From: Antedon mediterranea
Taxonomy: Eukaryota > Echinodermata > Crinoidea > Comatulida > Antedonidae
Direction of reading: 5' to 3'
Assembly (NCBI RefSeq): GCF_964355755.1
Contig: NC_092679.1
Coordinates: forward strand, 17,226,932 to 17,290,931
Length of the DNA stretch: 64,000 bases
The position numbers were made by a program, and so were the translations under genes. The notes under the pieces are model-generated. The model was given only the letters and a program-made list of their open reading frames with translations, did no database searches and was not told the origin of the DNA. Shown piece after piece: positions 27,801-57,344 of this stretch; positions within the stretch are counted from its first letter, which is position 1, and each line of letters begins with the position of its first letter.

Positions 27801-30800
27801 AATATATTAATACAGTAGTATGCATTGTGTATAAATAACCTATTTCCGAGAATAATAACAATACTGTTAATTAAACATTGTTGTTGTTGTTATGTTAGTA
27901 TATAATTGCCATTTATAGTTCAGATATTAAATAGTGCATCTCAAATGGGGTTGGTGACATGTTCCTAACCACCAAACCATAGGCCTTTACAAAACAATTT
28001 ACAAAATAAAATAATCATTTTCCTTCCTAAAAAAACTTTGAAACCATCGTAAAACTATCTAATACATCATTTGAAAAAAAAACCCACAAAAAATAATTTC
28101 CATTACAACAATCAATGCAATGGATTTAGATTTCACAGTAAATTTGAACTACATGCTTCTTCCTTGTCCAAGACAGTGGCTGTGTGAACTAATACACCCC
28201 GAGGTAACTCTCTACTTGTCTTGTAAGATGTACTACTGTAGGTTCCTTTTGAATACACAATATTATCTGGGATGTATAACTCTAAAATTATGATAGATAC
28301 AAATCAATCATATAGTGGTCACCATATTATTTATTGCTGATCTACTGATCTAGTTAAAGATAGTATGAAGATATTATATTGACTTGTGATATAAAAAATG
28401 ACATAATAAAAGTCAAGTCTATTTCCAGAATAGAATAATCTATTGAAAGAAAGAATGACTATCTAAAGAAATAATTCACATATTTATAAATTCTAAAATA
28501 AACCACTTCATATTTGAAAGGGTCAAATTAACAATGGCATAATTATCTATAAAACTAGATAAAAGTATTATGATTCAAAAAGTATATAAAGATTGTGGTA
28601 TTAATTTTACTACTTAAATAGGCTGTTTGGCCATGAACTGGAAGGAACCGCAAGCCACATCGGGTAATCATGTTTTGAAAGTCTGATTTTTCCCCATAAA
28701 AGTCGACAGTTGGTAATCTTGTCAGACACACAATCAGTCATTCCTGGTCAAATCCATCAGTACTAATACCAGTCGCTGTCCAATCATTGAAACTTCAAAA
28801 GAATCCCTCCTTTTCAAACTAGATGCCAGCAGCATAAAGTTATACTAGTAGTTATAAATTGTGGTTACGATACAAGCTTACTTCACTTAAGAAAGTGACC
28901 CGTGGTAGTTCATGAAACCTTGGTTTAAGTTTTATAATACAACATTTTGATAAAAAAGACCTAGATTCCGCAACTGGGTTCATACAGCATGTAAAAAATT
29001 AATATAGTAGTTTTAGTCTTTGGGCTAGTTTACTGTATTTTATGGCAATATGCATAATAAACAATCATATATTTATATTTCAAATACGGTAATAATAAAG
29101 ATGATTGACAGCGATGACCATGCTGTACTAGCTTTAATAAACACTAAGTGTACTGGTAGGCTAAGCCAATATGCTAAAACAAGTATAACACATTAAAAGC
29201 CCCAATGGTGAGTGACTCATAATCACATAACAAAAACATATAATTGAAAATGACATACATAGATTTTGTTCATTCCGTATTCTCACGCAAAGTTCGGGCC
29301 TACCGAGTTATGGTTTTGTATCATACACAACAATATACAACTGAACTAGGAAGAGATTAGTGGAAGCCACCATTTACGACACTGACCTTTTGTTTGTTAC
29401 GAAATCTATGGGTACAAAATTAATGTATATTGCTTATGATATGAAAGTCATACACCAACAATTTTGCCCACCTCATCCCCCTCCCGCAACTACTGTTCTG
29501 CGAAACATCAATAAAAATAAACGTTAATCAAGTTGAACACTTTGCAGTTACGATACTAAACGTGAACTGGTTTACGATACAAAAGCGTAACAATCTATCT
29601 GAACATACTTTATTCTAAAAACAACAAACTGACAGCAAATCTTTTAAGGACATCATTAATACTCATAAATCATAAAATCAATAAACAATCCAGATATATT
29701 GTGTTTTACCTCTGTATACATATCCTGACCTCTCCGAACTTGTCCACGTACTACTACAAATTGACGAATCATCAGAATAATTAAAAGCAAAGCCAGCTAG
29801 TCCTGCGTGATTTTGAAGAAATGATGGATTGTTTTGTAGTCCTGTTTTACTACTGGCACTTATATACTCGTCCTGTTGTTCGTCCAAAATGTTATTTACC
29901 TCTTCGGCGGTATTCACGTTAACAGAACCATTTGCCTTCGTTTCATTTGATTTCCAAAAGGTGAAAATTCCAAAGCCAGGCTGTCCAAAACTAAAATTTG
30001 CACAACAACTCAAGCAACCCATGCTTTTAAGCTAACTATTCACACACAAATGAAAGAATCAGTGAATCGAGTTAAAGTCAATATGCAAATACTAGCAGGT
30101 CACATAAATTGACCTTGAATGAATTCAACCATTGTAAAGTTGAGAAAACTAAAAGCCTGTGGTATATGGCTTTTAACTGAGATAATATGGGTTTATGAAA
30201 TGTACAGAAACGAGCTTAAATTTGAGATTATGTTCTAATTATCAACTCAAAAGTTCATAATCATAAAACTAGATTTTCTAAACCTAGAAACTCAATTCAT
30301 AATAAAACACTATCTGATAATGTCCGTATACATAACAGACTCAATTATTGATACCACTAATGTTCAATATAAAACTCATGAGAAGGAAGTCTTGATTTAA
30401 CGTTTTGATCTCTTCCTTTCAACCATTATAAATATGAACTGAAAATTATTGACAAATGAGGTCTATGATTTAAACAAATCTGGTGTTTTTTAATTATATA
30501 AAAATCCTTTTTTTCTTGATCAAATATATTATTCTGTTAAATATTTTTAAGGTGTTTCATAAGGACCAAAGTAGAAATATGTTTGGCAGGGTTATAGAGT
30601 TACTCTAAAACTAACCACGACACTCAGAAAGTGTTTTCCATTTATTTAAACATTATTATTTGATAAAATATTTGTAGAAATTAAAATGATTTCAATTTGA
30701 AAACATTCTAAAACATTTAATTTTGTTCATTAAAAAGCAATTAAAAAGTAAATATACGGTTGAATTGCATTCAAATTTCTTCAAAATATCAAATTTGTTT

Positions 30801-33800
30801 TGTTAAAATACAGTTTACTATTCATTTCATTTCTCTTGTTTTTATTTCAGACTACATATCCATAAACTGTATATATCCACAAACTGTATAAATAGGCCTA
30901 CTGTGCATGTGTTTAAATTAAATAAAATGACAAACACTTTCCATTTTCTAAAAGAACCTTTGACTATAATATAATATATGATAATTATATGCTTATAAAC
31001 AAAAGACCAGAAAAATAATACAGAAATGGTTCACAAACCATGAATACTAATTGAGAATTATGAATACCTAATTAGTTGAAAAAGCAATTTATATATTTAT
31101 ATTCATGTGAACACAATCAAGCACACAATGTTAATATTCTAATGTATATTGTATGGCATGATCATTACATTATCAACTGGATTTATCCAAGATGATCTCA
31201 TTATCTTGTCATTGGTTGTAATGAATCACCAATCATTCATCTTTTTGACACAGCTCAGATGTACCATGTTAGTTCACTGGGGAAAAGCAGCTTTCACACT
31301 GCGCCCGGATTGGGAAAAATATAAAAATCATGAAATATTGTGGAAAATGGGTTCAGTGGAAGATCGTTCACACCAAATTTGTATGATTTGAATCTGTACC
31401 TGATTTGGGCTCCAAATTTGTAGCGATGGATCAAAAGCTTTGTTTTCTGAAATCATACAATTGTTTTCTTTTGTCCAATCAGCAGTGAGCATGAATGACC
31501 TCGCTTGACAACAAATAACCGAATTTGTGCATAATGTGAAGGCACGCTCGCTATATTTTTATAAGAGCGCCGGACCGAATCCGGCGTAATATGATGGCCA
31601 CATGTGTACACTGGACCTCCATCCCACCCTCTGATATTTCACCCTATGATTTACTATAATTATATGTGAAACTCAAATTCTACATCCTAAACCCAATTGT
31701 AAGCCTGTCTGTTCAAGGTAAGGCAATTGTACCCAAGTCATTGCTGATGTATTAACATTGAAGAATTATCCAAATGATGTAAGTGTAAGCAACTTTGACC
31801 TCCTACTTTCAATGTTCAAACCAATCCTAATCTAATATTTCCATAAAAAACAACGATTTTTAAAAATCAAGGCAATGCAAGGTCTTAAAAACCATTGTCA
31901 CAACTGTATGCATAGAATGCCCACTGATGACAAAAGGTAATCCTTATGCACATACACAAGTTTAAACCTCTTTATTTGTTAAAGATTAAAGAGACTGATA
32001 TAGGACATATAAGATTAAGAGGAGACCACTGAATAAAACTACATTACAACAGCAAGTGATATGGGCCAGTGAAAACCATAAAGCACCTAAAAGCTGGAAC
32101 CAACCATCTTCATCTATCTGTTATTATGAATATCTACAACTTTGTGAAACTTTTCTAAACTTCTTTCAAAGACTATAAACATTACAATCTTAAATTTCAC
32201 CTTTTACACTGCTAATTTTGATGATTTTTTTTTACTGTAAATAGTTTATATATTTTCAGTTAAGGGTCACAGTTGTTGTTACGGATTTGGTTTACTTTTG
32301 TGTCCGCTGACTATCATCTCAATCTGTTTTTTGTTTGTCTATTCAATGTTTTTGTCATGGTAATAAAGTACGACAATAAAAAAAAAAGAGTGAAAGCTAC
32401 CAATTGTATGTACCTAAGCAGCATTTGTTACATAGCAAAAAGTCTATTTTGGTTTACCAAAGGAAAAAATACAAACATAAATCATTTGAAACCAGATGAA
32501 TTTTTTTAGAACATTTCTTAAATGTTTGACATAAGCTTCACCAATAACTACTTACAATCTTCAGAACTTGTTTGAAAGTTTACAATTTTGTGCAAAAATC
32601 CGAGAGTGAGTACTGCACCACCATTCATTTCAGCTGAAGAATCCTTGTCTACTTTTGGGCTAAGTAATGCAGATTTTGCTAAACTTGTCCACATATTTTC
32701 CTTCTTTTTTGATTCAGTTACCAAGTTGCTTGTTTCCATTTTGTTATCTTCCGGGTTGTGATGCGAAAAATCTGGAGAAGCTTCCGTGCCATCATTCAAC
32801 TCAGCTGAAGAGTCTTTGTTGCCTTTTGACCTATGTAATGCCGATTTTCCTAGACTTTTCCAATTATTTTTCTTCTTTTTTGAATCAGTTACTAAGTGGC
32901 TCATTTCCATATTGTCATCTTCTGGTGCGTGATGCAAAAAACCGCAGCATCTTAAAATCCAATTAATCATTTTTGTTGCTGGTACTTTCCACTTTTCACC
33001 ACAACACCAACATATACTGTACCTTGTAAACTTAATGTCACCATGAAATGAAAGACAAACTAATAAAAAACAGCAAAATAATTGACAATATGGCATGTCT
33101 CTAGGTATACAAACAACACAATGCTGGCAATAAAATGTTACCACAATGTGTATGGCCCTACATTTTTACAAATGAAGAACATCGACAAATACACTAACTG
33201 TATGGCAAAATAGTTGACTTTGACAAATTTACGCCTCGAATCAGTAGACCAAGTTCATATTAACAAAACTATACTAATCTACATTTGTATAAAAGAGTGT
33301 ATCTAAACTTAGTTTAATATAATAGGCTTTGTATTTACCATTGACACTTCTTTTTGGAATAGCCCATTTTTTAACCTTTGCTATTTTAATTAAACAAAGT
33401 AATTGAAATTAGAATTTTTTTAATTCTGATTGTGAATAGTTGGTTTAGTTTAATGCCTTTACACCGAGTAGTCTTCTGACCACTTCACCTGGGCTGCTTT
33501 GGTGAGGTTGCAGATGAGATCTTATTATTAGTAACAATGCACCCAAAAATAATGGTAAAATTCTTACTTTAGTGGCCATATATAATTACCTATAGAAATG
33601 TATTAATATGATTTATACTGCAATTGGATTGTACTGCTTATGATTGTTTTTATTGTAATTTTCATTTCTGTGTATAATATATATATTTTTGATTGCTTTT
33701 GTCCGTTTTTGTTTTGGCATCTCTGACACAAGCATTTGCTTTCTTGGTGCCGCCACCATTATTTGGAAATAAATGTTATTTTGATTGATTGATTGATTTA

Positions 33801-36800
33801 ACTAATACCGAAAATACAACTACAGGATAGAATAATTTCGCTGAAGACCTCTTTGAGATCAGAGGTTGGAATCTATAGCTCACCACTTTATGAATGAACA
33901 TCGAGGTATTGATGAACTACATGCTATACATGGAAATAGAAATAAAAAGAACAGAAATAGGGTCAGCATCGCTTATTTGCATCAGCATTTTTCACCAGGA
34001 TCACTATTTTATTAAAGAGCTCCTAAGGAGGTTGGAACCACTTAGCTCACCACTTTAGTAGCAGTATGCCTACAATTTCCATTCAGAAAGTTAATATACT
34101 GTACAGTATGTTACTTTATGAAGTTCATTCTATTGAATTTACCTTGAAATTAAGGCTAAAGCAAATTGCTTATTCGCCTCTCTGGAATTACACATCTCTT
34201 ACATACGGCTGAAACTTTTGGTGGTGGTTCAATGACTTTGACTCTACTACAACTCTCGGCAAAGCGTTCCAATCGTTAACTACCCTTGCTCCAAAATTAT
34301 TTGATCCCCATTTAGTTTTGACCCGCAGCTTTGATAGTTTGAAAGAATGACCTCTAGCCTGTCTAGGTTTAGCTTTATCTTTCGCACCATGTTTATCACC
34401 GCCGCCGGTAGCCATGATTGTACTACGATGAATAAATATAGGCCTATGTGACAACAGTAGGCTAAGAATTTTAATCTCGAAAAATAAACTCAATCCTAAT
34501 CCTTAAAAACCCACAACTCAGATTTCAGTAACCTGTTCATGCAATTATTTAGAACGTTCTTTTTGTGGATAACCATACACTGTAACTGCTTCATAAACTT
34601 GTACATTGAAACAAATTAAAATTGTACGGAATCAAAGTAATGAGCAATCCAACTAGCAAACAGAAAATTTGTTTAATAAATCAAATAAAGTCTAAAATTA
34701 CAGTAAGTTGAATTTACAGATATTGGCAGATCACGTATCAAGTACATTTGCTAGACTAAAAAGTAAAGATGGTTACATTAGCTAGTTTTGAAATTATAAA
34801 AAGGTAAATTTCTAGTACTGCTGCTGCAAACAATTACAAACATTTTAGCACCATCATGTATGGTGACAAAATACCAAATCATCTCTTTTAGATTTGAAAA
34901 CATTTAACCATAGAAATATTATATAGTGGATATCTCTATGATTAAACTAATAATTCATCTATCAATAATACATACCAGATTCTGAATCATTACCAAAAAA
35001 AGACACCGGAGAAAATGCATTGAAGAAGCTTTTTGGTGCTTGTTTGGTAGGTGGTAAACTAGATTCTTCTGAACTATTGCTTAAGGAATGTGTACTTTCA
35101 TAGCTTTTTGCTAAAGACTTGCTGCTATTGCTGTTTATCAATTTATTGATTTCCACTGATTCTTCATCAGATTGTGGTGTACATTTACAACAAAAATGGA
35201 ACAACCACTCCATTGATGATACTTCTCTCAAAATATATGTAAAGTTTACTTAGGAGAAACAGTTTCTTGGATGTAATTGGTCAAAGTACTGTATATAAAT
35301 TCAAAAGGAGCAATTAAAATTCAGTCACCAACATTACCATGAGGCAACTCTTCTTGGTAAAAAAAGGAAAAAGTACTTGGGAATACACATCAACTTCAAG
35401 ACAGAATCCAATGGAATGCTTTTAAAGAAAAAGTTTCTTCAGTTAAAGTACTGCATATAAGATTGAGTAAACAGCAATTCAATGCAGTCACCAACAATAC
35501 CATGAGGCAACTCTTGTAGCTAAAAATTATTATCAGGTACTGTAATATTCTAGTTTTAAATTCACACTCTAAAAGTCAATGGCAGGGTTCCTTCCTGCAA
35601 CAGATATTCCAGAATGATTTGTGAAACCTGAATTTTAATCTCGTCAGAAGTTTCCTGATTGACTTATTACAATAAGTAAAAACTTCCAAATTGTCGATGT
35701 GAGCAATTATTTCTTGATAGAATATTTTCAAAAATACATTTCAACTTTAGAAAAATAATTTAGAAGCATACTCTATGTGTAGTACACTTTATCAATAATA
35801 GAAAAGCAAAATTAAAACTATAGCTACTGCATCAAATTGTAGACATTTTCCAAGTCCATTTGGTGACTGTATAAATTTACTTCAGATGTTTCCGAATAAA
35901 ATAACTTTTAATCAAAACTGTTTGCTGCAACAACAATACTACATATAATTAGAATAATAAGCAGTAATAATTATAGTTTAGACAATAATCAATCCGACTT
36001 TGAGTTAAAACACCAATTCTAGTGAAATAATACTGAAAACAGCAGGTGTCAATTGTTCTTGCAGTTTGAATGGAATCTCTAAAAAGTAAACCACAAATGG
36101 AATTTTTTTCCACCTTACAGTGAGTTAATAATAACAACCTTGAATAGGACCAATTTTAAATGCATCAATAGTTTAAAAATGTACAATCATATCAACACTA
36201 TTTATTTTTAGTATTAGTATATACAAATTGTGTACAATGAATTGTATGGTCTATAGCAATACCAATGATGGAAGAAGAAGAAAGGTCATTAGTTCAAGTT
36301 GGCTTATTATTTGTCAGCAGCCAGTTGGTGACCATAATCTCAAGTCTGGTTTTAGTAGAATCACTACAGATAAATTATATTATGTAAGTAAGTTCAAATG
36401 AGAAATGAACACTAGTAAAGTTAAGTTTGGGTTACACCATGTGATTACAAAAAATAGAGTAAGGTTGAGAATGTTCTTCTTCAATCATCTTCTGGAAAAT
36501 GGTGCAACTAATGACTAATCAAAATATGATAAAGAGAATCATTCACATAGAAATCCAATTATTATCTATTTATTCTGATGAGTTGTTAAAGCGTGGTTCC
36601 CACTAGCGACGCAACGCAAGGATGTAACGCAACGCAAGTGAATTGACCAATCCCAAGCGATGGCTTATTCGCTTGTGATTGCTAACTGTCTATAACTTCG
36701 CTTTTCATTGGTTAAAACGCTTGCGTTGCGTTTACGTCCTTGCGTTACGTTCTAGTGGGAACCAAGCTTTAATGTCGTATGAGCCTATAACTTTTGCTAC

Positions 36801-39800
36801 CGATGGGTGTGACCATGATCTTTCTAGGGAGTTGGTAGAAGAGTTTCAAATATCCATTGCGAGTGAGTTGTGGCTAGCCTAAACTTCAATAAATAAATAT
36901 TTAATCAAGTTACAGTTAGTAAAAAGCCAAAAAAATATAATAAAATAAAATATGGACAAAAAGGAAGGAGAGAAAAGGCAACTACTGTACATGCATATTG
37001 AGCTAACTTCCATTTAACAAGGCCGGCTGAAATCGCGTGCTCAAATTTGAGTTAGTGTTTACCGACCGACCGACATAGTGAGATGTAGAGTCGCGTGCAA
37101 ACGTGTGAGGAAGTACTTACCACCAGAGCAAAAACTACTGTCAACTGTGTAAGTAAAAGTTGGAATCTTTTTAGCGGGAGTGCAACTAGATCCATAGGAG
37201 TAACTTGTTGATGTTGATGAGCATTCTGAAGAATTTAACTTTGATGATTTTTGTTCTTTTGCCTTTAGTAGTAACTGGCTATTTTCCAAGCATTCATCTT
37301 CAGAATCCAACTGTTCTGAACAACAACATTTTAGCACATAGCACACCATTGCATCTGGTGACAATTTAATTATACCAATCTCAATGGTAAATAATCCAAA
37401 ATTAATTTTATTATATATTTGACAACGCACAAAGCCTCAATATTGAAATTTATAATCTTCACTTAAAAAGTAACAGAGTATGTTTATGTTCAAATTTGCA
37501 GTAAACCATCTGGAGTATAATCTTAACTTAAACAGTAAATATATCTTTAAATAAAAGTCCAAATTGGAGACAAATTTTCTATACAGTATATTCCATAGTA
37601 GGGAAAGTACTGCACTACTACTACAGTACCGTATACAACATCTAAGAATCCAACCGAAGCAACAAAGTGATCACAAGAGATTGTACTGGTAGCTGCAACG
37701 ATATTATGAACATCTGGAAGGATCATAAAATCTTTAAACTGTCCATTTAGAAATCAACTGCTAACAACGCTGGTATCAATTTACCTTTGGTATATTGCAC
37801 CAAGATACAATAAAAAAGTTATTGATGCACTTTACTACTTTTACTTAGCATCAGTGAAAATGTATTACAGGATAGAAATATACCATTAAAACTGTCCTTC
37901 TAGAATACTGCAGAATGGATAAGTTTGGTGCCTCACAAGCACATAGAAAACCATACATACCCCACACAAAAATGTACACACAAATGCCAAAAAGTATACA
38001 GTATGGTCTTACTTGTGTATTTCAAAAGAGCTGTGATCATTCATATAATCTTATTCATTGTTCTTCTAAAAATAGTGTTAAATACAAGCCAACATGTATT
38101 CACTTTAAAACAAAAGGTATTGCTAGGCATAATTAATTGCTAAAATAAAAGCCACTACAGTATGTTAAATTATAAACTCTCTGAAAAGGATTGAATATAC
38201 ATATATTCTAAAGTCAGTCAGGGGATATTTGGTTTTGCAACATTATGGCAAGTTGAAACTGTAATGTGATATTCTACAGTAGTGTTTTCAACAGGAACAA
38301 AGGTCTATAGCAAATAGACATTTTATTTATAGGAATATGTGTGCAAATATATATTTTATTTATAGGAAAATGTGTGCAAATAATCTAAGTTTAATGACAT
38401 ACATACAGTAGTCGATAACATTAATCGCTTTATTCTAGATAGTAGGTATGATGTATACTATTGGTGAAATAAGGAAGATGTAATTTTGTTATGTTTTATT
38501 AATGTTATGGTTGATAAGTTGATTAATATTTTAGACCTAAAATAGATTTAAATAAATTTGTAGAGAATGTTTTACCTGCTCTTTCTGGTTCCACGTTTGG
38601 TTCAACGTTTTGTTCACCTTTGACATTTGTTGGGTAGAATTCCTCTGTACCTGCACTTTTAACTGACGAGGGCCTTCTAGAATGCTCATAGTCTCTCACG
38701 CTTGGAGATCTTGAACGTCGGATCTCTTCATCTGGAATGTCTTGTGCATCGTAAGGAAAGTCAGCTAATGACCCTTTCCGATAATCTAAATCCCCAGGTT
38801 GTGCAAACTCACTGGTTGCTCCCCTGATAACAAGCTCATCGTCAATAAGGTATTCTCCCTCATTATTTGGATCATTCTTTATTTCTACTAATCCATCTTG
38901 TTCATCATTGTTGTTATTATTCTCTCCATTTTCTTCTGGTTTTGGCTCTTTCTTTTCCAAACCAAAGAATGAGGTCACAGATGTGAAAGAATCTCCGACA
39001 GAGTCTCCTATTGAAGTGACCGTTGAAGAAACACTGTCGCCGATGGAACTAAACTTTCCACCAACCGTAGAAAAAAGATCGTCCAACGGCATAATGATGA
39101 TCACAAAGTTAAAAACATTTAATAAAACACAACTGTCCTACTCAAAACAATAACCAAGACTATCATAGTTCCAACAGATAATGATGCGTCAGTATGCTTC
39201 CAACAAATCGGCAACAAAATTCCATATGAACAGAAATTTACATCGACAGAGGTGTGAAAAATCTATAAAGTTTAACTGAATCTGTTCCAAAAGGTAAATA
39301 CAGGTTTGGTACTCTTCTCTAACAGATGTTCATTCCCAAGGAGACTACAGACTATAAGACCTGAAGCTTTGCTATCTACATGCATATAATACCTGCAATC
39401 AATTAACTAGAATATTAATATGACCATGGACCATGACGTAATCATGGATAAATAAATAGTTAGATAATGAACAAAAAAAACATTGGGAGTAGTACGAACA
39501 CATAAAAAAAAGTTCAAATATATATACGGTACTTTCAAAGTTATTATTTTCATAATGTTTTTAGTTTGTTTTCAGAAAAATAAAAAATTTAAAAGGTGAA
39601 TGATTAATGATACATAAAAAATGTCAAATTATTCAGATATGACGGATCAATGAATATACTGTACATGCAGTTATTTAAATTATCAGATCTTTTGAATGTC
39701 AAAAAATGCATATAAAATAATTTAAATTATCAGATTTTTGAATGTCATAAAATGCAATAAAATAATTTAAATTATCAGATCTTTTGAATGCCATAAAATT

Positions 39801-45800: not shown

Positions 45801-48800
45801 ATCACTGTCTGATGACGATTCATCTTCATCATAGCCATAGCTTCCTTCTAAAGAATAAAATGATTAAACAATTTAGCTTTGACTGAATCAGTTTGTTTAT
45901 TAAGTGTAGGTTTCAGTTCTTTGATCCAAAGCATTTCCTTAATTAAACAATCAAATTTGAAACTTTTAATCATTTCAGGATATTGTCTATAAATCCAAAT
46001 TTGATTTGACTTAATAAACAAACAGAATAAAATGATTAAAGAATGAAATGAAGAATAAAATGATTGAAGAATTAAATGATTAAAGGACTAAATGATTGAA
46101 AAATATGAAATGAAGAATAAAATGACATGATACACTGTAAATGTCCGGGGTTCAAATCTTGATAATCTTTACAGTGCCAAAAAACACTGCTACTGATATT
46201 TATTCTACTTCAGTTATTGCTGCAGTAATAAACGTAATACAGCAATAATAATGTTAGTTTACTGCAATAACTGCAGTAGTATAATTTTCACGAAATCCCA
46301 AGCTTTTTAATGAGAATTATATTCGATTTATGTGTTTAGTATTTTATTCTACAAACAAGTGGAGTAAACTTGATGTGAGATATGTGCTAAAATTCAAAAT
46401 AAAGTTACTATAATTATCATACCCAAGCCTTGTTTTTGTTTTTTCTCTTTCTCCTTTTTCCCTTCCTCCATGCATGGACATCCTCCGCAATTGGCAAAAC
46501 ATAGTGACTTACTTAGGTACAAGAAGAACAAGATGACCATGAATAGAAGGACGACCACTACAGTGAGGAACACGATAGCCTGGTCAGGAACTGAAAATAA
46601 ATTATTATTATTATTATTTTAATAAAAATAGGAATTTTCTTTATTGAGGTTTTATTTATGCACTGCAGTAATCTGAAAGGCTATTTGGGTCATTCCATGT
46701 CAGATCACCCAATGGTAAACACCCTACTGACTCGGATTTTAATGAAAATTGGTACAGGTGGTTATTAGCCTAAAAAAAGCTTAAATATAAAATTTTACGT
46801 AATTCAGAAAAACAGATTAAAAGTTACGGGCTGGACAAATTGTGGAAAAAACGCAAAAAACCGTAAAAATGGGTGCGGCCGCCAATTTTCAAAAGGCCAT
46901 AAAACAAGAACTACAAGTCCAATTAAAAAAAAATAAACAGTATGGGAAAGGAAATGCCCCAAATATTCCAAATTTGTTATCAGAATTGTAGTAGAATGTC
47001 TTAAAATATATTTGACCTTTTGATATATAAAATGACCCCCGGTTTGACCTTGTGGAACGTATATTTTTTTAATGTCATTACTTTTTTTTTAAACTATAAA
47101 GTGGTATTTATAACATATGTAAAATGCTAAGATGTCTTTTACCTCATTTAGAAGATATAGTTATATCATGTTGTCTGGGTTTGTGTTTTGTATCAATCTA
47201 TGTGTTAATTGATATACCAGGAGGATATTGATGAAGTAGAATACTGTACAACAAGCAATGGGTAACAACAGACCGCACAACATTAATAATGGTGAAAAAG
47301 TATTGAAGAATGCGGTGATGAGCTACTGTAGCTGACCAAATGAAGCTAACAAGGCACCAGTTACTGTTGCTGAAGCTCAGGGGTCATTTATCCTTTGCAG
47401 GAGATGATTTTGCTGAAAATTACGCTTTTGTCATCCAAGATGAAATAAAAAGCTTTCACTGGAAAAACAAACAGGCAACACTGCATCCATTTGTAGCATA
47501 CAGATGTGAGATGGATGGAAATTTATCTAATTGCAATACACTCAACAACAGTGTGGACTTTCCAAAAAGTTGTTTTAAATCATTTGAAGGGTAAATTTTA
47601 CGAAATAAAGAAGGTTCACTACTTTACCGATGGATGCGCAGGTCAATATAAAAATAAGTCCAATTTTATCAATCTATGCAATCACAAACATGATTTTGAT
47701 TTAAATGCCGAGTGGAACTTTTTCGCCACATCACATGGGAAAAGTGAATGCGATGGAATTGGGGGGACATTACAACGACTGGTAACCAAAAAGAGTCTAA
47801 AACGTCCATATCATAATCAACTACTAACATCAATAGACATGTTTAATTTCTGTGTTGAAAACATTCCTGGTATCATTTTTTTTCATTTATGGGAAATGAC
47901 TGTTTTACCTTTCTATTTACTTATATTGTTCTATGTAAAAGGGTCCTACAAAAAAACAAAGCTACAGCTTTTTTATGCAGGATCCCTGTTATCAGTTGTA
48001 TTGCAATTATGTTGTAATTGATGACTAAATAAATGTGGAATAAATTGAAATTTCATCCGAAGAAATTAAAGAATCTGTAGCCCGACTGAAATCTCGATTT
48101 TCTGAAGCCAAAACCATCAAAGGCACCCTTCAACTGCACAGATTTGTACCGCAACAAGATGGTTCTCTTATGGTATACAAGTGCACAAAAAGATGAACCA
48201 AGGAAAGTAAACGTAACAAGCTGCCCATCAACATCTACTACATTTGCACGAGAAGTTCCACAATATGCAATTTCTCAAAATCATTTTGTGGCGTGTTTGT
48301 ATGATGGTGTGTGGTGGATTGGGATGGTGCTGGATGTCATTTCAGCTGAATTTGGTGACTAAACAGTACTTTAAATCATTTATGCATCATCCTGGTCCTT
48401 CAAAAAATGTCCATTGGCCAGATAAAGCTGATGGATTGAAGAATCAAGTGACCTATGTCTTATTGATGCACCATCACTAACATCATCATCAAGTAGGAAT
48501 TTACAGTATATCAAAACAAGAAGAAGATGCAATATTGACTACTTTCAACAGGAATGATATCTTTCAATAAAACATTTATAGAGGCAATGTAAAATATAAC
48601 TGATTAAACATGTTAAACGCTGTTTTTCACATAGAATTTGTTTGATGTGCAATTTTGAAAGCCTATAAAATAGAACTGGTACAAAAGACATCTTAGCTTT
48701 ATCTAACATTTTACAGGCAAGAAGTGTGAAAATATAAAAATTAATATTTAAACATTATAATTTTTGTTCCACAAGGTCATGGCAAAGGTCAAATTATAGG

Positions 48801-54800: not shown

Positions 54801-56913
54801 GTTGTGGAAAAATGAACCATAATGGGATGATGGCGGCAATATTTGTTACTGTCCTCAATATAAAATGGATGGGAGAAAATGAATTGAAGATGGAAAAGAA
54901 TGAATAGGTATGATGGGTACTGTACAGTACAGTAAAGAGAAGATACTGTACTGTAGTGTAATAATTTTCTAGACTAGATTTAAATAAAAATTGATAATTT
55001 ATTGTATTTGGATTAATTAATTAATATTATTGGGTTCTTACAGTATACTGTACTGTAGATACACAGGAGGTATAACTGATTTTGTATTGTGAAATATGTA
55101 TTTGTGGAAATCTATTATTATCAAACGATTTATTTTTTCAACAAAACAGTTGATACTATTTTTATAGAGTACCTCAAACAGCATAATAAATTATGTGAAG
55201 AAAGTCCTACTGTAGGACTTGTTTCCTGTCAAGTGGATTTTTTTTTTCTGGGAAAAGAAAAAATTGTTGGGGGATTTCACCAATCATTTTACCAGACAGG
55301 TTTTTTTGTAATTGGCCCCGATCGTCTGTTCACCCCTACAATCCAAATAAAAAGGCACAATATCAGAATTTTATGTTACAGTATATCAAATTACAGTTTT
55401 ACCTGTCTGTTGTTGGATGTAATTTTAAGTTTTTTTTAAATTATAAATAATACGCTGCTGAAAAAAATATATAAACAAAATTATTAATATTATATTATTA
55501 AAATTATGAACAAAAATCATAAATATTAAAATTCAAAATGTTTTAGCTAGCTAGGCCAAATACAGATCACTCCGGCCGCGCTTCACTCCGGCCGCGATTC
55601 ATTCCGGCCGCAGCTATGGAGCGCCCAATGAGTCTTTTACAACCGAGACAAGTTTTTTTGTAGAGAATCAAAATAAATATTTGTAATCATACAGTATATT
55701 TTTTCTCTTTCAGGATCACAACAACATCGCAAGTGTTTTAAATTAGGTCTAATGCTAAAACAAAATAATTTATGTGTTGTATCCAATTAAATGTAATAGG
55801 CTAGTATATTAATTGTAATGTGATTAATTAATGTAATTTATTGCAATGTACCCTATATGTCATATTATTGTTATCATATATAAATTAAAATATAAAATCA
55901 TTGTAAATTGGACTGTACAAAAATAATATATTAATTCTTGATACAATTCCAGGTAACATTAATTACACGGATATTTGATTATTTGAAATAAATAAATTAA
56001 TATTTTACATATTGTTATTAACTATAACAAACATCAATAATAATTGATTATTTGAAATAAATAAATTAATATTTTACATATTGTTATTAACTATAATTAG
56101 TAAGTATGGGTACTGGCAAGATAAAGTGTTATAAAAATAAGGGTTTTAACAAATTTTTAATGTTAATAAATGTAAAGCTATAAAAATAAATGTACATAGA
56201 AAGAAATTAAATAGTGTTAACTGTTATTCAAGCATTAATTAGACGGGTATTTGATTATTATTTTTTTATTGAATTTAATTAAGTTAAGTTTAGTTTGAAA
56301 GAAAAAGCAGTTCCAACTTCTTTGAATGTTATTGTTAATGAAAAAAGTAAAATTGTTGCTAATAAATATTCAACTAGTTCCATTTAAATTCACCAAGAAT
56401 TTGTTATAACACTGAACAGTATAGAAAACGTATATATGGGCGCTCCATACTAACGGCCCCTTTGCACAGGAAGTCGAATTGAATAGCGGCCGGAGTGCAT
56501 ATATATAGGTAACTTTATTCCAAAAAATGTAACAAAACCACGCACTGCCAGAGTGCATACCATCGCGCTAAACTGATACGGCGGCCGGAGTGAAGCGCGG
56601 CCGGAGTGATTGGCTACCGCTAGGCCTAGGCTAGGCTACCTGTTAAAATATCACTTTTCTTAAGTAGGCCTTTTCACAGTCTCTATTTATTCTACATTAA
56701 TTTTAAAATCTTTTGCAATACTGCTAGGCCTTGTAGGTCCTACTGGGTGGGTGGTACCCAATCGTATTACCATGGAGTAAAGGGTATTACACTACACTCA
56801 CTCACTTCGAACTAGCAGACGACAATTTTCTAGGCCCCTAAAACTAACTATCCAGTCATTTACTTACCGTTTGCTACGTTTTCTGTTGCTGTTGTTGGTG
56901 CTACATCAGCCAT
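15511..56913 (-). CDS. syt14/16-like: Double-C2 synaptotagmin 14/16, with alternative N-terminal exons
   Basis: The common 3' exons are 26875-26754 (acidic linker), 18304-17891 (C2A), 16776-16581 (linker and C2B start) and 15824-15511 (C2B end and stop). The transmembrane form adds 56913-56868, 46590-46423 and 45847-45683, giving 474 aa. Diagnostic SYT14/16 words are KGSHFKNLAAGR, KTSIRRGQPNP, NKRAMKRKETLGW and the C-terminal VCRWHALLE. Neither C2 shows the Asp set for Ca binding, so this should be a Ca-independent membrane-trafficking adaptor, as known for the vertebrate proteins. Five further first-exon candidates (A-E) join the common exon in the same phase. A BEL element, Harbinger-type and TTAA-type MITEs, a Sola-like element and several minisatellites lie in the introns. 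Confidence 0.93.
15825..16580. other. Intron of syt14/16 with a tRNA-derived SINE
   Basis: This is intron sequence between the two C2B exons. Apart from the SINE at 16318-16530 nothing further was recognised. Confidence 0.6.
16318..16530 (+). mobile_element. tRNA-derived SINE
   Basis: The head has a Pol III A box (TAGCGTGGTGG, 16324-16334) and B box (GGTTCAATCC, 16369-16378) at tRNA-like spacing. A non-tRNA body with a short hairpin (GCGAG..CTCGC) and an A-rich AAATAAA-type tail follow. It has no cloverleaf 3' half, so it is not a functional tRNA gene. Confidence 0.72.
16581..16776 (-). CDS. syt14/16-like: syt14/16 linker and start of C2B
   Basis: 196 nt, phase 0 to 1. A Ser-rich linker (SGSSSPYSSSSDLSHSESNS, then LQSLQHGG) leads into MPELLVGLSYNSTTGRLSVE and ILKGSHFKNLAAGRAP, the highly conserved first strands of SYT14/16 C2B. 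Confidence 0.93.
16985..17765. repeat. 43-bp minisatellite, about 18 copies
   Basis: The unit reads GCAGATATGACTGAGCTACC then TCGAATAGCTTGTTCACATATGC, with single-base variants and one unit carrying an extra insertion. It lies in the intron between the C2A and C2B exons of syt14/16. The unit contains the palindrome-like CATATG. Confidence 0.95.
17891..18304 (-). CDS. syt14/16-like: syt14/16 C2A exon
   Basis: 414 nt, phase 0 to 0, 138 codons. It begins VKPREPPPTVGKLEVAFSYS and includes MNITVVKVSDVPSKDRGG, LALMPSKRQRAKTRIREGEN, FKELFRFTRL and MRFRLFG. The KRQRAKT motif is shared with SYT14/16. The Ca-binding Asp residues of classical C2A loops are not seen. Confidence 0.92.
18571..18835 (+). 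repeat. 5' LTR of BEL/Pao element
   Basis: 265 bp, TG...CA ends, with AATAAA near 18770-18776 as a candidate polyadenylation signal. No difference from the 3' LTR was seen on base-by-base reading. Confidence 0.96.
18836..19079 (+). other. Untranslated leader of BEL/Pao element
   Basis: The 244-bp leader contains two or three related copies of a segment with CCGCCATTGTT and GTTGCGGAAACTGATC-like words. The primer-binding site should lie directly after the LTR, but I could not match it to a specific tRNA. Confidence 0.6.
19080..25163 (+). CDS. BEL/Pao gag-pol polyprotein
   Basis: 2027 aa from the ATG at 19080; the frame is open from 19047 but begins there with TTG. Domains in order with approximate residues: coiled coil (70-140); Ser/Thr/Pro-rich spacer; DUF1759-like gag (LRLPTVRVERFDGNPLKYPM, about 380); Cys/His zinc knuckles (600-660); A17-type aspartic protease (ILDPQSNTCFI, about 715); reverse transcriptase (KLRVVFDCSAEY and the YVDD catalytic box, 1015-1145); RNase H (FFSDASEFAYA, about 1320); integrase with HHCC finger (about 1660-1705) and a DDE core (SGVDLFGPF, LHSDRGTN, WERQIRT); DUF5641-like C-terminus. 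No stop or frameshift was seen, so it may be active. Confidence 0.96.
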   Translation: MEDDSKFGLGGYNLRKVPAQTEKGNQYRKELAQENRYSSRNSSRSFGTSAASKSTRSMRTRSSARSSRFDIKEKLLNLEEQKVSVKVELEFAEEEMRLKHLHLDNETKLMKLQQEKELAKVDAVLSKVKQLDSKSVTSFMEYLDELPTQSTDDIQQYVDNIPEKNVERNSVDATFATQHYNTYKRPTTVSSFGQYAPIPGVVTSSIASTSYMTVPTISLPIITAPEAMTIPVPTCVFAQIPVPTMTKNTNSMPVRATSSLLLPSTFVPVRVTSTISFTPSQHITVPSSFTPYSLVTSLPPQRVESQFLIPVSSQNMNFQIAPSLATTLPPQRVACQATTPVSSQNFPISSPFVQPSLFNQPQFNQPQFNQPQAPVMKELIDSLRLPTVRVERFDGNPLKYPMWECAFTSLIESKAVSVNEKLNLLSQHLSGEPLAMISNYMLLQSEEGYYRARSELKNRYGNNAVISKAFLYKLESWPKIQPRDAPGLRVFSDFLNEIVVAKQKIPDLGVLDYPQENLKLIKKVPYFIENKWRNIVQSYANVDSFPSFEIFTGFVRARADEANIPMFIQQPTVPRIDEPEKKHQRRQTSQSFATKVNMLCTYCTKDHHIDDCEGFNKLTRRDRKQYLCEHKLCYGCGMTNEHLAYQCSNAITCKHCKNKHLSSLHIFKQNDKRTVNTSLCTSVTSKSSNTSMIVPVWFRSSRCPQNEILIYCILDPQSNTCFISDSIAEKLKLEGNKTNLLLSTMHSKSSVSCRKFSHMEVVSFDRKTVIPIPTVFSRDQIPATRSQIPTPAVASKWTHLNRISSVIVPYMQNVPIAMLIGNNVPNAIRPRDIIAGGEDEPYGQLSALGWGVVGTMCQRVPEVSVSNHMVASEKDSIVSPKNRLVNQTNAKEMILIMYELDFNDDKPGQSAMSADDRKFMDIMESNVVQRTDDHYEMPLPFKIREGMPNNRNMALKRLKQLKHKLNHNSTFKNDYMNFMVDVLENCSEKVPVNELDMRNGEINYVPHHGVYHPKKKKLRVVFDCSAEYAGTSLNKRLLQGPDMINNLFGVLTRFRKEPIAIQADVKGMFHQFFVSEPDRNFLRFLWWKDGSEEIVEHRMTVHLFGAVSSPAVANFGLRKAADDGESQYGKPVADFIRNDFYVDDGLKSLPSEADAIQLIDSSTKMCAKAGLTLHKWVTNNRQVLNSIPTDLRATDWKEISLHDQLPIERALGVVWCVETDTFEFRMEFKDNPVTRRGILSTLSAVYDPFGFLAPVLIVGKLILRELCMSQLDWDDPLSDEMYHKWAKWRNDIISGIENIKVKRCFKPVDFGSVSKAEMHFFSDASEFAYAQSSYIRLINTLGQVSVSFLLGKSRIVPKTKTTTIPRLELVAAALSARMSGLITRELAYDATHYYWCDSKVVLGYIRNEARKFKVFVSNRIQQIHDHSSTNDWHYVPSASNPSDSGTRGVSIVQLTNSTWLNGPPFLHTNEPLPTAESCVETADVDISDEMRKTTCVFSTCISLDLFQKWFINLCNNFSSWTRLRRVIARCLMWKKRLMDAAKVNIKEGSMFKSISSDCTIPCVDDIQVSEKLILKHVQDQHFYDEKVLLSKLLNTNSLEDRKSDVQLKRSSFLYGLDPFLDENQLIRVGGRVKRSKFAFDVKHPLILPKRCHLTNLIISHFHEQMNHAGKVSTLNEVRQRGYWIIHGLSTVGELVHRCVICRKLRGKLSNQKMADLPIERISDAAPFTYSGVDLFGPFNIKERRSLVKRYGVLFVCLSSKAIHLESANTLETNSFINALRRFVSVRGPVRQLHSDRGTNLVGTRNEWQNVNEDEVKKYLVGQGCDIHFKFNFPSASHMGGIWERQIRTVRNALAPLLNIHGSQLGDECFRTLLSEVMNIVNSRPLTVNNLNDPNSMEPLTPNHILTLKHKVVVPPPGIFQNADMYCRRRWRRVQHLSNEFWCRWRKEYLSSMQSRSKWTSPKSNFKVGDVVLLKGDNVPRNIWELAKVIALHPSDDGLVRKVSVFVGRRQSVLERPVHKLVQLVPVD
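25431..25695 (+). repeat. 3' LTR of BEL/Pao element
   Basis: 265 bp, identical to the 5' LTR on reading, followed directly by the GTCCT target duplication. Confidence 0.96.
25701..26753. other. syt14/16 intron, no gene
   Basis: Nothing coding was recognised. Two imperfect copies of ACCCTTTAAAACAACTTTGA and following bases (about 26427-26470 and 26685-26725) flank roughly 220 bp that include a GC-richer block, possibly an old insertion. Confidence 0.5.
26754..26875 (-). CDS. syt14/16-like: syt14/16 common exon (acidic linker)
   Basis: 122 nt between TTTTTCGCAG and GTAAAT, entering in phase 1 and leaving in phase 0. It encodes VHTEDLGDVEQGTVGSGSFG and then SSAGLFDQDDENDTIGLEGG plus one Glu. 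The phase-1 entry fits every upstream N-terminal exon, so it is the acceptor on which they all converge. Confidence 0.8.
27409..27541. mobile_element. Harbinger-type MITE, 133 bp
   Basis: The ends AGCTCGGTCTACACTATCAAA and TTTGATAGTGTAGACAAGGCT are inverted repeats. The interior has GTGTGATGTGCTC and CCATATATGGGCACATCA, as in the MITEs at 13257 and 13738. The flanks (TAA/TTG) are not a clean duplication. Confidence 0.85.
27545..29709. other. syt14/16 intron, no gene recognised
   Basis: AT-rich intron between the common exon and first exon E. No coding region, RNA gene or clear repeat array was found. Confidence 0.5.
29710..30022 (-). CDS. syt14/16-like: syt14/16 alternative first exon E (MGC head)
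   Basis: 313 nt from ATG, donor GTAAAA in phase 1. The head MGCLSCCANFSFGQPGFGIF has Gly2 and Cys3, as in doubly acylated proteins, although residue 6 is Cys and not the Ser/Thr preferred by N-myristoyltransferase. It is homologous to exon 1 of the plus-strand single-C2 gene and has exactly the same coding length. Confidence 0.8.
30023..32555. other. syt14/16 region between first exons E and D
   Basis: This region presumably includes the promoter of exon E (just above 30022). No gene was recognised. Around 31290-31620 a GC-richer block (GCGCCCGGATT to GAATCCGGCG) may be a MITE, but its ends could not be defined. Confidence 0.45.
32556..32970 (-). CDS. syt14/16-like: syt14/16 alternative first exon D (Cys head, duplicated body)
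   Basis: 415 nt from ATG, donor GTAAGT in phase 1. The head is MINWILRCCGFLHHAPED. The body is a tandem duplication of about 58 residues: HLVTDSKKKKNNWKSLGKSA is echoed by NLVTESKKKENMWTSLAKSA, and KDSSAELNDG by KDSSAEMNGG. The frame extends upstream to about 33144 with further Cys and hydrophobic residues, so a longer start cannot be excluded. Confidence 0.74.
33690..33800. repeat. LINE-like 3' tail with (GATT)n
   Basis: A sequence ending AATAAATGTTATTTTGATTG then repeated GATT units resembles the microsatellite tails left by CR1-type LINE insertions. Too short to classify. Confidence 0.5.
34200..34450 (-). pseudogene. LINE ORF2 3' fragment
   Basis: On minus, the frame encodes RQARGHSFKLSKLRVKTKW and FGARVVNDWNALPRVVVESK, the RGH..KL...R...F..RVVNDWNSLP signature of the C-terminal end of LINE reverse-transcriptase proteins. 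Only the last 70-80 codons remain, between first exons D and C of syt14/16. Confidence 0.75.
34976..35213 (-). CDS. syt14/16-like: syt14/16 alternative first exon C (Cys-cluster head)
   Basis: 238 nt from ATG, donor GTATGT in phase 1. The head MEWLFHFCCKCTPQSDEESV joins a hydrophobic start with CCKC, then a Ser-rich region ending FNAFSPVSFFGNDSES. A roughly 100-bp imperfect direct repeat lies just upstream (35250-35524). Confidence 0.75.
35250..35524. repeat. Imperfect direct repeat upstream of first exon C
   Basis: About 35250-35362 and 35425-35524 share GTTTCTT, CAAAGTACTG(T/C)ATATAA, AGCAATT, TCAGTCACCAACA and TACCATGAGGCAACTCTT in the same order. The pair lies within 40-310 bp upstream (minus sense) of the exon C start, where its promoter is expected. 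Confidence 0.75.
35530..37120. other. syt14/16 region between first exons C and B
   Basis: Apart from the MITE at 36590-36768 no feature was recognised. Confidence 0.5.
36590..36768. mobile_element. TTAA-type palindromic MITE, 179 bp
   Basis: The ends AGCGTGGTTCCCACTAG and CTAGTGGGAACCAAGCT are inverted repeats within a nearly full-length palindrome. TTAA flanks both sides (36586-36589, 36769-36772). The interior is ACGCAACGCAAG-rich, as in the cluster at 9423. Confidence 0.9.
37121..37349 (-). CDS. syt14/16-like: syt14/16 alternative first exon B (Cys-cluster head)
   Basis: 229 nt from ATG, donor GTAAGT in phase 1. The head is MVCYVLKCCCSEQLDSEDEC, followed by a Ser/Thr-rich part ending VDSSFCSGG. 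Four Cys lie within the first ten residues, suggesting palmitoylation. The reading frame continues upstream without an ATG, so this ATG is the best start. Confidence 0.75.
38576..39092 (-). CDS. syt14/16-like: syt14/16 alternative first exon A (amphipathic head)
   Basis: 517 nt from ATG, ending GCAG before GTAAAA in phase 1. The head MPLDDLFSTVGGKFSSIGDS continues with repeated SIGDSV, TSIGDSVGDS and TSVTSFFG words, an amphipathic pattern able to bind membrane. Then come an acidic Asn-rich part and an Arg/Ser-rich part. It is the only candidate first exon without a Cys cluster. Open upstream codons extend to 39104, but the first ATG is at 39092. Confidence 0.72.
39660..39800. repeat. Tandem repeat of about 50 bp, three copies
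   Basis: Three units of ATTTAAATTATCAGATCTTT followed by TGAATGTCATAAAATGCA and AATAA. It lies upstream of first exon A of syt14/16. Confidence 0.85.
40019..40290. repeat. 43-bp minisatellite, about six copies
   Basis: The unit begins TACTGGAACAAGTTACAAAA and continues TGAAGCGTTAAAACACCAAACAG, with near-perfect copies. It lies in the syt14/16 region between exons A and T3. It is unrelated in sequence to the 43-bp array at 16985. Confidence 0.95.
41640..41944 (+). other. Open frame without ATG, possible transposon fragment
   Basis: One plus frame stays open for about 100 codons and has protein-like composition: AVAQLFSAKSCRQDVHRRLF, VAKIVTSHAKANAKLFEKG, GKEATGYELQRYFQLF, then stop at 41944. 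I do not recognise the family. It stands out from the stop-rich intron around it and may be an exon or a decayed mobile-element gene. Confidence 0.35.
42830..42945. repeat. About 20-bp tandem repeat
   Basis: Six units of TAATATAACTGTACATAACTG with small length variants. Confidence 0.85.
42950..45200. other. syt14/16 intron, largely featureless
   Basis: AT-rich intron. The only recognisable part is a LINE-like 3' end at about 44470-44665: WNRL/RLPQSLS-like codons, then GTGCGCTATATAAGCCCATT and a (TTA)n tail, typical of degenerate CR1-type 3' termini. Confidence 0.5.
45202..45377. mobile_element. TTAA-type palindromic MITE, 176 bp
   Basis: Same family as 36590-36768, with ends AGCGTGGTTCCCACTAGCG and CTAGTGGGAACCAAGCT. 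The flanks are CTAA and TTAA, so one base of the duplication has changed. It lies 306 bp downstream of exon T3 in transcript sense. Confidence 0.88.
45683..45847 (-). CDS. syt14/16-like: syt14/16 exon T3 (acidic cytoplasmic linker)
   Basis: 165 nt, phase 1 to phase 1. It encodes GSYGYDEDESSSDSDDEMLL, then KYQQSLSFGRLSRQPS and a basic end. The DE-rich, DSDDE.LLKYQ-like segment matches the region after the membrane segment in vertebrate SYT14. It presumably joins directly to the common exon at 26875. Confidence 0.84.
46423..46590 (-). CDS. syt14/16-like: syt14/16 exon T2 (transmembrane segment)
   Basis: 168 nt, phase 1 on both sides. It encodes VPDQAIVFLTVVVVLLFMVI, a hydrophobic run of about 22 residues (to LFFLYL), then SKSLCFANCGGCPCMEE and a Lys/Glu-rich stretch. 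The Cys residues just inside the membrane resemble the palmitoylated juxtamembrane Cys of synaptotagmins. A Sola-like transposon ends about 97 bp upstream. Confidence 0.86.
47340..48480 (+). pseudogene. Broken transposase of the Sola-like element
   Basis: Pieces in shifting frames encode FAENYAFVIQDEIKSFHWKN..ATLHPFVAY, then YFTDGCAGQYKNKSNFINLC, then NFFATSHGKSECDGIGGTLQ, and finally YDGVWWIGMVLDV and HHPGPSKNVHWPDKADGL. These are the recognisable core of a transposase family common in marine invertebrates. A frameshift near 47580, a LINE/SINE tail inserted at about 47910-48045, and stops near 48200 and 48360 inactivate it. The N-terminal part is missing. Confidence 0.72.
47910..48045 (+). 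mobile_element. LINE/SINE 3' tail, copy 1
   Basis: It shares CTATGTAAAAGGGTCCTACA, AGCTACAGCTTTTTTATGCA, GGATCCCTGTT and TTGATGACTAAATAAATGTG with 53386-53529 and ends in an AATAAA-type tail. It interrupts the transposase reading frame, so it inserted after the DNA transposon. Confidence 0.75.
49165..49565. repeat. 400-bp polypurine GA/GGA minisatellite
   Basis: Almost only A and G on plus, built from GGAGGGAGAGAGGTGGGG and GAGGAGGAGGAAGA units. Long open frames on both strands are by-products of low complexity. The tract could adopt triplex DNA. It adjoins the right end of the Sola-like element. Confidence 0.95.
49590..51149. other. syt14/16 first intron, no gene
   Basis: No coding region or RNA gene seen. 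Around 50570-50760, GGTGTG and CACTCCTCA words recur (TTGCACTCCTCAATAC, TCGCACTCCTCAAGG), a weak local repeat. Confidence 0.45.
51154..52732. mobile_element. Non-autonomous DNA transposon with TTAA duplication, 1579 bp
   Basis: The termini AGGGGGATTCTGGGTTTAAA and the complement of AGGGGGGTTCCGGGTTTAAA are inverted repeats with two differences. TTAA flanks both (51150-51153, 52733-52736), which fits piggyBac or Kolobok. Only short open frames occur inside, such as MGRPTKITSDKYNFPK at about 52454. No transposase was recognised. Confidence 0.82.
52945..53073. mobile_element. Partial TTAA-type palindromic MITE
   Basis: It contains CTAGAACGTAACGCAAGGAC, GCATTTTAACCAATGACAAGC and ATCGCTTGTGATTGGTCAA, the interior and one arm of the family at 36590. 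Both outer ends are missing. Confidence 0.82.
53386..53529 (+). mobile_element. LINE/SINE 3' tail, copy 2
   Basis: Same family as 47910-48045, with a longer tail (AATAAATAAATAAATG). Confidence 0.75.
53530..54380. other. syt14/16 first intron, no gene
   Basis: No supported gene or RNA; short open frames only. Confidence 0.45.
54382..54797. repeat. 18-bp minisatellite with higher-order pattern
   Basis: About 22 units of GGGTTACTATTAGAGTGT. An A/G variant (TTAGAG or TTGGAG) comes in blocks: four G units, four A, four G, then five A, so an eight-unit (144-bp) higher-order repeat is present. Because 18 is divisible by 3, all frames stay open and yield spurious repeat proteins. Confidence 0.95.
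54800..55565. other. syt14/16 first intron, no gene
   Basis: AT-rich sequence without a recognised feature. An open frame of 116 codons at 55089-55439 has no family similarity that I can see. Confidence 0.4.
55566..56610. mobile_element. Non-autonomous element with GC-rich CACTCCGGCCGC ends
   Basis: A perfect 30-bp terminal inverted repeat is built from two copies of CACTCCGGCCGC, and further copies lie just inside both ends (CATTCCGGCCGC, GCGGCCGGAGTGC). GGAGCGCCCA and its complement TGGGCGCTCC mark the inner ends. The core is AT-rich and holds a direct repeat of about 52 bp (55976-56028 and 56044-56096). The CACT start resembles CMC/Chapaev ends, but no transposase or clear target duplication is present. 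Confidence 0.8.
56868..56913 (-). CDS. syt14/16-like: syt14/16 exon T1, start of the transmembrane form
   Basis: 46 nt from ATG, encoding MADVAPTTATENVAN, then a GTAAGTA donor in phase 1. Spliced to exon T2 it gives a 15-residue lumenal or extracellular head before the membrane segment. The start lies 432 bp from the OPA3 start on the other strand. Confidence 0.8.
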
Positions 56914-57344
56914 TTTGTTTTTCTTTTTTCAATCCCACTTTTCTACTACGATATACAATGCTTATGGTACCCAAACCAAAAACAGGTACTACTGAATACC
57001 CACAAAATCGAATTTTAAAACGATCGAACATCTTCACACGATTTTCTCCTGTCATGCAAATTTCCCTCGCACGTTGTTTCTTTTCATTGAGGAGACAGAA
57101 GAGACATGACAAGGTCATCAAAAGTATAATTTTTTGGCATTAAATAAAATATTTAATACAAATAAAATATGGAATTATTATTAAAATGTGGTTTTCCTTT
57201 ATTATTAGTTATTGTTCTTATATTAAACATATTATTTATGAACGTAACGAATAAATGCATTAATATTAAAAACAATTTCATCATCCTCGACCTCATCACA
57301 CAAAAAAACAACAAAAACGGAGAGACTCACTGGTTTTTAAAAAA
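56914..57344. promoter_or_regulatory. Probable bidirectional promoter, syt14/16 and OPA3
   Basis: The start codons of the transmembrane form of syt14/16 (minus, 56913) and of OPA3 (plus, 57345) are 431 bp apart and face away from each other. Both 5' UTRs and promoters must fit in or start from this interval. I cannot identify specific elements. A 64-codon frame at 57169-57363 overlaps the OPA3 start and is read as 5' UTR. Confidence 0.6.

Follow-up and report, generated by a model that had tools for sequence, protein, structure and literature searches.

SYT14/16-like genes at the locus

The 64,000-nucleotide stretch of the Antedon mediterranea genome that we analysed (the window; forward strand of contig NC_092679.1, positions 17,226,932 to 17,290,931) contains on its minus strand a gene, here called gene A, whose product ends in a tandem of C2 domains, C2A-C2B. 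In window coordinates, the part shared by all predicted forms of the gene consists of a common exon of 122 nt at 26754-26875 (acceptor in phase 1, 9.54 bits; donor in phase 0), the C2A exon at 17891-18304, an exon at 16581-16776 encoding the linker and the start of C2B, and the C2B exon with the stop codon at 15511-15824. The Pfam C2 family was matched in both the C2A and the C2B exon. In a search against solved structures the best relative of the gene A body was C2AB of Syt1, and the 27 sequences retrieved at E values up to 1e-10 came from Syt1, Syt7, Syt3, Syt4, Doc2-beta and rabphilin; no SYT14/16 entry was among these results. The name SYT14/16 is one that we assume from the sequence resemblance of the transmembrane (TM), acidic and C2B exons, together with the C2 family matches. 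Within the synaptotagmins, SYT14 and SYT16 are relatively poorly understood.

In the alignment of gene A to Syt1, of the 10 Asp positions that we take to be the Ca ligands of Syt1, 8 carry another residue in gene A, which in two cases is Glu. Since most of the ligands are missing in its C2 domains, the body is likely to be a Ca-independent membrane or protein binder, in agreement with the initial annotation of the locus, which had described a Ca-independent C2 tandem.

The form of gene A with a transmembrane segment would start with a coding exon of 46 nt at 56868-56913 (minus strand; MADVAPTTATENVAN; phase-1 donor of 10.46 bits). This is followed by the TM exon at 46423-46590 (168 nt, phase 1-1), which encodes the juxtamembrane Cys cluster LCFANCGGCPC and has weak splice scores (acceptor 0.1, donor 4.05), and by an acidic exon (DDEMLLKYQQ...) at 45683-45847 (165 nt, phase 1-1). 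All three exons of the TM start have donors in phase 1. Divergent from the first of them, and a few hundred bases from its ATG, an OPA3 gene lies on the plus strand at 57270-58200, so arranged that a promoter shared between OPA3 and the start of the TM form is plausible. The intron between the common and C2A exons harbours a plus-strand LTR retroelement with one long open frame (19041-25163), presumably BEL/Pao-like, and the stretches flanking it at about 25700 and 18840 appear similar by eye. A minisatellite-like array, also recognised by eye, occupies about 17050-17780 in the interval between the C2A and linker exons.

The cluster includes two further SYT14/16-like genes, unmentioned in the initial annotation. 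Gene B (plus strand, 1704-10450) was modelled with 328 residues and a single C2 domain. It comprises a first exon beginning MACLTCC at 1704-2016 (MACLTCCKHFPLG...; 313 nt, phase 1), a short exon at 4235-4320 with the phases of the gene A common exon (phase 1 in, 0 out), a C2A exon at 8975-9373 and a last modelled exon with stop at 10262-10450; C2B is absent from the model. Gene C, a SYT14/16-like gene of 575 aa on the minus strand, lies just upstream of the window at -880 to about -3945 and consists of a 172-nt phase-1 Cys first exon (MSLVCFKNCRESAMLL...), followed by a long exon rich in Ser and by a single C2. Using C2A of gene A as a query, we obtained 8 matches in the genome at E values up to 0.01, with gene B (41% identity) ranking second after gene A itself and gene C (34% identity) fifth. 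Judged by these identities, genes B and C are paralogs with a gene A-like C2A; the models of both end after one C2, and a tandem C2 was found in neither. Genes A and B converge and genes B and C diverge, and in each of the three modelled genes of the cluster an N-terminal-Cys first exon is joined to a phase-1 acceptor. Within gene B, intron 1 contains a minisatellite-like array at about 3060-4130 (by eye), and a DDE_Tnp_4 transposase (6247-6990), which we take to be of Harbinger type, lies in an intron together with companion open frames (4584-6990 on the plus and 5799-6182 on the minus strand).

Six or more predicted N-termini for one C2 body

The initial annotation had listed five single exons of gene A that begin with an ATG, end in a phase-1 GT donor and have coding lengths of 1 modulo 3. 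We verified all five in the sequence of the minus strand and labelled them, from 5' to 3', GDSV (38576-39092), cys1 (37121-37349), cys2 (34976-35213), cys3 (32556-32970) and cys4 (29710-30022); their lengths are 517, 229, 238, 415 and 313 nt, respectively. The common exon, starting at 26875, accepts exactly their phase, as had also been annotated. Joined to the common exon and the C2 exons, each of the six N-termini gives a frame that is open to the end of C2B, without an internal stop, with products of 474 (TM), 520 (GDSV), 424 (cys1), 427 (cys2), 486 (cys3) and 452 (cys4) aa. A seventh open N-terminus results when the GDSV exon is spliced from an alternative donor at 38813, the frame again reaching the end of C2B. 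Several ATG exons with a single donor phase and one common acceptor form the arrangement of alternative first exons, and gene A is accordingly predicted to have N-terminal variants with TM (through the exon at 46423-46590) and without it (through the five TM-less starts). In our view gene A is probably a synaptotagmin of the SYT14/16 type in which the C2A-C2B body would carry any one of six or more alternative N-termini. An additional exon-like open stretch at 28285-28139 (minus strand; LYIPDNIVYSKGTYSSTSY...), preceded by AG and ending in TGA, could take phase-1 donors as an alternative last exon; this candidate terminal exon had no similarity within the 104 kb searched and is without support.

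For comparison with chance expectation, the minus strand from 56800 to 26900 (29.9 kb) was scanned for ATG frames that run for 229 nt or more into a phase-1 donor scoring 5.4 bits or higher. Exactly five phase-1 frames passed, and they were the five exons, GDSV being counted by its inner donor at 38813 and cys3 from an in-frame upstream ATG at 33096, which is a possible earlier start of that exon. Among 200 sequences generated from a third-order Markov intron model the mean was 0.065 and the maximum 1, in a test that is partly circular and flatters the result, as the five exons had themselves supplied the thresholds; the donor weights were consensus values. The same scan in the other phases yielded 1 frame each in phases 0 and 2 of the minus strand, and on the opposite strand 0 in phase 1 and 2 and 3 in phases 0 and 2, which indicates that real DNA holds more long frames than the Markov model. 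The outstanding feature of the scan is the agreement in phase. The outer donors of GDSV, cys1, cys2, cys3 and cys4 score 6.38, 9.79, 7.69, 5.69 and 5.5 bits, respectively, against a donor background whose 95th percentile is 4.6 and whose 99th is 7.65 bits under the same consensus weights.

A codon-usage measure was trained on 9,274 codons from the longest frames at 22 GPCR loci. By this measure the five exons (-0.052 to +0.010 per codon) could not be told apart from random intronic frames, of which 31 were scored (-0.180 to +0.101). Even the established C2A exon of gene A reaches just +0.011 per codon, and codon usage is uninformative in this genome.

Four of the five exons open with Cys clusters, as the initial annotation had noted: cys1 (MVCYVLKCCC...ENSQLL), cys2 (MEWLFHFCCKC...EINKLI), cys3 (MINWILRCCG...EMSHLV) and cys4 (MGCLSCC..., MGCLSCCANFSFG...). 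Within residues 1-15 lie 12 of their 17 Cys, a clustering at the N-terminus that would be expected of S-acylated proteins. Pfam, searched at E values up to 0.1, returned nothing for the GDSV exon or for the Cys exons of either gene A or gene B. Among the 28 exon pairs assessed by shuffling, similarity is beyond doubt for just two, cys1-cys3 and cys4-gene B. The score of cys1 against cys3 was reached by 0 of 1000 shuffles (z 5.5) and that of cys1 against cys2 by 10 of 1000; cys2 against cys3 (69 of 1000) was not significant. The alignment of the three has 10 invariant columns, including M1, C9, E22 and L26 in cys1 numbering. Thus cys1 and cys3 look like duplicates of each other, and cys2, less surely, like a duplicate too.

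The homology of cys4 lies with the first exon of gene B. None of 1000 shuffles reached the score of this pair (z 7.1), and both exons are 313 nt long and in phase 1. When 104 kb were searched in translation with E values up to 0.5, each exon matched nothing but itself and its partner (E 0.004, with 20 residues aligned at 50% identity). Genome searches with either exon returned only the query itself, a result that excludes close copies only, since these searches also missed the similarity of the two exons to each other. Because it is homologous in the two genes, the cys4-type exon is probably older than the A/B duplication. The first exon of gene C showed no significant similarity to any other exon compared in the shuffle test. 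The MGCLSCC start of cys4, with Gly2 and Cys3, Cys6 and Cys7, resembles the arrangement of Gly2 and Cys in dual-acylated kinases of the Fyn type, and by this analogy cys4 is perhaps myristoylated as well as S-acylated. For MACLTCC of gene B, which has no Gly2, only S-acylation could be possible.

Within cys3 a tandem repeat of 57 codons (32593-32934, minus strand) provides a measure of constraint. Its copies differ by 42 bases. The pN/pS is 0.52 in the coding frame (Fisher p 0.013), and in the five remaining frames it ranges from 0.60 to 1.09, with p values between 0.059 and 0.708. Non-synonymous changes per site are fewer than synonymous ones, significantly so in the coding frame only.

The GDSV exon encodes no Cys and opens with a predicted S/T/G-rich amphipathic helix of 40 residues. 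For residues 4-43 the hydrophobic moment at 100 degrees is 0.457, a value reached in 0 of 5000 shuffles, and the mean hydrophobicity is 0.41; the initial annotation had described an amphipathic GDSV-repeat at this place. AlphaFold, run on the single sequence, placed a helix at residues 3-42 with low confidence (pLDDT 61-64). Ser, Thr and Gly together account for 7-11 of 18 residues in windows within residues 1-45, and the net charge of the helix is 0 to -3 per 18 residues. An S/T-rich, weakly charged amphipathic helix of this kind would be ALPS-like. In the available part of a report on ALPS motifs (PMC13394108), these are likewise Ser/Thr-rich amphipathic helices with bulky hydrophobic residues; the GDSV helix is about twice as long as the 19-residue Piccolino ALPS motif described there and differs from ALPS motifs in its net charge. 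The inner phase-1 donor at 38813, which would give an exon of 280 nt, beats the outer one (8.02 vs 6.38 bits), and its use would keep the helix with the loss of 79 residues. A genome search with the GDSV exon gave no second match, which excludes close copies only. A minisatellite-like array, seen by eye, is located just above this exon at about 40020-40290.

That some of the five exons are never-used relics or fortuitous frames would be consistent with their codon usage, which is that of random frames, and with the fact that similarity is strongly supported for cys1, cys3 and cys4 only. We nevertheless consider this unlikely, given a count of frames far above the null (5 vs 0.065), the constraint on the coding frame of cys3, the 100-degree periodicity of the GDSV helix and the clustering of Cys at the N-termini.

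First exons, cassettes and promoters

Of the 11 acceptors in our gene models, 9 score 5.3-10.4 bits, the two exceptions being 0.1 and -2.77. For GDSV, cys1, cys2 and cys4, no in-phase acceptor above 0.71 bits was found in the open frame above the ATG. In-frame cassette use is thus hard to envisage for these four, and their serial use as cassettes was rejected on this ground. For cys3, an in-phase acceptor of 5.34 bits at 33059 would permit an in-frame internal exon. A single long transcript from the promoter at 56913, with the Cys exons as phase-1 cassettes and not as separate starts, can thus draw on this moderate acceptor and on the symmetrical phase 1-1 of the TM and acidic exons, by which cassettes are possible in gene A. 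It appears very unlikely in view of the weak acceptors of the other four exons, the position of the Cys clusters directly after the ATG, which fits an N-terminus best, and gene B, where the homologous exon is the only start identified.

The five ATG exons, if used as mutually exclusive coding first exons, may be served by one promoter each or by fewer. An acceptor of 9.99 bits lies 139 nt above cys2, and above GDSV acceptors score 5.84 bits at 45 nt (out of phase) and 6.76 bits at 300 nt. These sites would fit spliced non-coding 5' exons, and the true transcription starts may therefore lie elsewhere. No 8-mer was shared by at least four of the five upstream stretches of 400 bp (null mean 0.475), a search in which a degenerate element could be missed, and a TATA-like match was present upstream of cys1 only. 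The initial annotation had envisaged a protocadherin-like bank of lipid anchors, each with the presumed use of its own promoter; in the clustered protocadherins a bank of variable 5' exons is spliced to common exons. Gene A is similar in its variable 5' exons and common exons and differs in that these exons encode short anchors, not ectodomains, and in that no shared promoter element was found, so that promoters of the protocadherin type are not supported. With one or a few upstream promoters and non-coding 5' exons spliced to the coding first exons, gene A would have a bank of start codons and not of promoters. This arrangement, to which the candidate UTR acceptors above cys2 and GDSV as well as the lack of a shared upstream word and the single TATA-like match would conform, is in our estimate rather unlikely: the exon at 56913 already has an ATG, and no non-coding exon was identified, though without a systematic search.

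It is also conceivable that the exons are small nested genes of their own, unjoined to the C2 body, since each has its own ATG. We regard this as extremely improbable; another candidate acceptor gene on the strand was not seen in the lists of open reading frames, and the first exons of genes B and C join C2 genes in the same phase.

Proposed membrane anchors, putative sorting signals and related systems

In the preferred reading, with alternative coding first exons, transcripts starting at 56913 would include the TM and acidic exons, and in transcripts starting downstream one of the five single first exons, each coding, would be joined in phase 1 to the common exon that begins at 26875. The five first exons would all be transcribed, and the isoforms would differ at the N-terminus, carrying a TM segment with juxtamembrane Cys, one of four Cys-cluster ends or an amphipathic helix. 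If the Cys N-termini are S-acylated and the GDSV helix binds lipid-packing defects, these anchors could place one Ca-independent C2 body on different membranes.

The dileucine-type motif [DE]xxxL[LI] is present in 6 of 8 N-termini (the TM form, GDSV, cys1, cys2, gene B and gene C), against 0.91 expected from shuffles (P 3e-5), a motif chosen after inspection as the sole clear excess among ten types tried, in a test that treats the N-termini as independent where cys1 and cys2 may share one inherited motif. It occurs in 0 of 8 other segments of proteins A, B and C and in 0 of 21 random frames. Exon cys3 has only a weaker ExxxLV, and cys4 has no dileucine-type motif. With such motifs in most N-termini, the anchor may bring adaptor-mediated sorting along with it.

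The proposal of the initial annotation, a bank of anchor exons for a single C2 tandem, is retained as regards mutually exclusive coding first exons feeding one tandem-C2 body, for which phases, open frames, N-terminal Cys, two neighbouring paralogs with a first exon of this kind and the replacement of most Ca ligands argue; its premise of a single N-terminus in SYT14/16 is not, nor are protocadherin-like promoters. A more far-reaching version, which we put forward tentatively and hold to be somewhat less than an even chance, is a bank of address labels in which one N-terminus would span the membrane, four would be lipid-anchored and one would sense curvature, the majority bearing a clathrin-adaptor dileucine signal, so that one Ca-independent tether could be placed on six membranes and recycled; the Cys-type exons would predate the local duplication and would also have given rise to two free-standing single-C2 genes. 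If one gene gives six anchors, membrane address and not the response to Ca would be the regulated feature of this branch of synaptotagmins. Moreover, identical bodies that differ in the anchor alone would, if true, offer a clean experimental comparison.

The initial annotation had taken vertebrate SYT14/16 to be proteins with a single N-terminus, which published TM-less alternative N-termini contradict. Transcripts of Syt16 with different N-termini lacking the TM have been described in two Ciona species and in S. purpuratus (Craxton 2010, PMC2823689), and the available part of the same paper lists vertebrate Syt16 sequences with and without TM and TM-less forms of human SYT14. These variants are alike in gene family and in their TM-less alternative N-termini; that part of the text describes neither an array of five nor Cys anchors, and neither an amphipathic helix nor paralogs with a single C2. 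The sea urchin Syt16 variant may be of the cys4 exon type. The accessible portion of a paper on honeybee Syt14 does not mention splice, isoform, transmembrane or variant. Among the matches listed in the open-licence literature, we found no array of this size, none of these anchor types as a set and no single-C2 sister genes. TM-less alternative N-termini in the SYT14/16 family are thus already known, and gene A is an unusually rich variant.

The closest mechanism, as far as the available text of PMC3973911 extends, is that of the KChIPs, whose N-terminal variants are cytoplasmic, myristoylated, palmitoylated or transmembrane and differ in localisation. The KChIP core is an unrelated Ca sensor and is encoded by four genes in mammals, and function was tested there, whereas for gene A it is inferred. 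DPP6 and DPP10, treated in the same source, resemble gene A in placing alternative first exons on one common body and, unlike it, have the membrane anchor in the common part, with only the cytoplasmic end variable. According to that text, exon 1a of DPP6/DPP10 probably predates the split of the two genes. The MxCLxCC exon likewise appears older than the separation of genes A and B, and its conservation in both predicts the kind of TM-less N-terminus that other animals may have.
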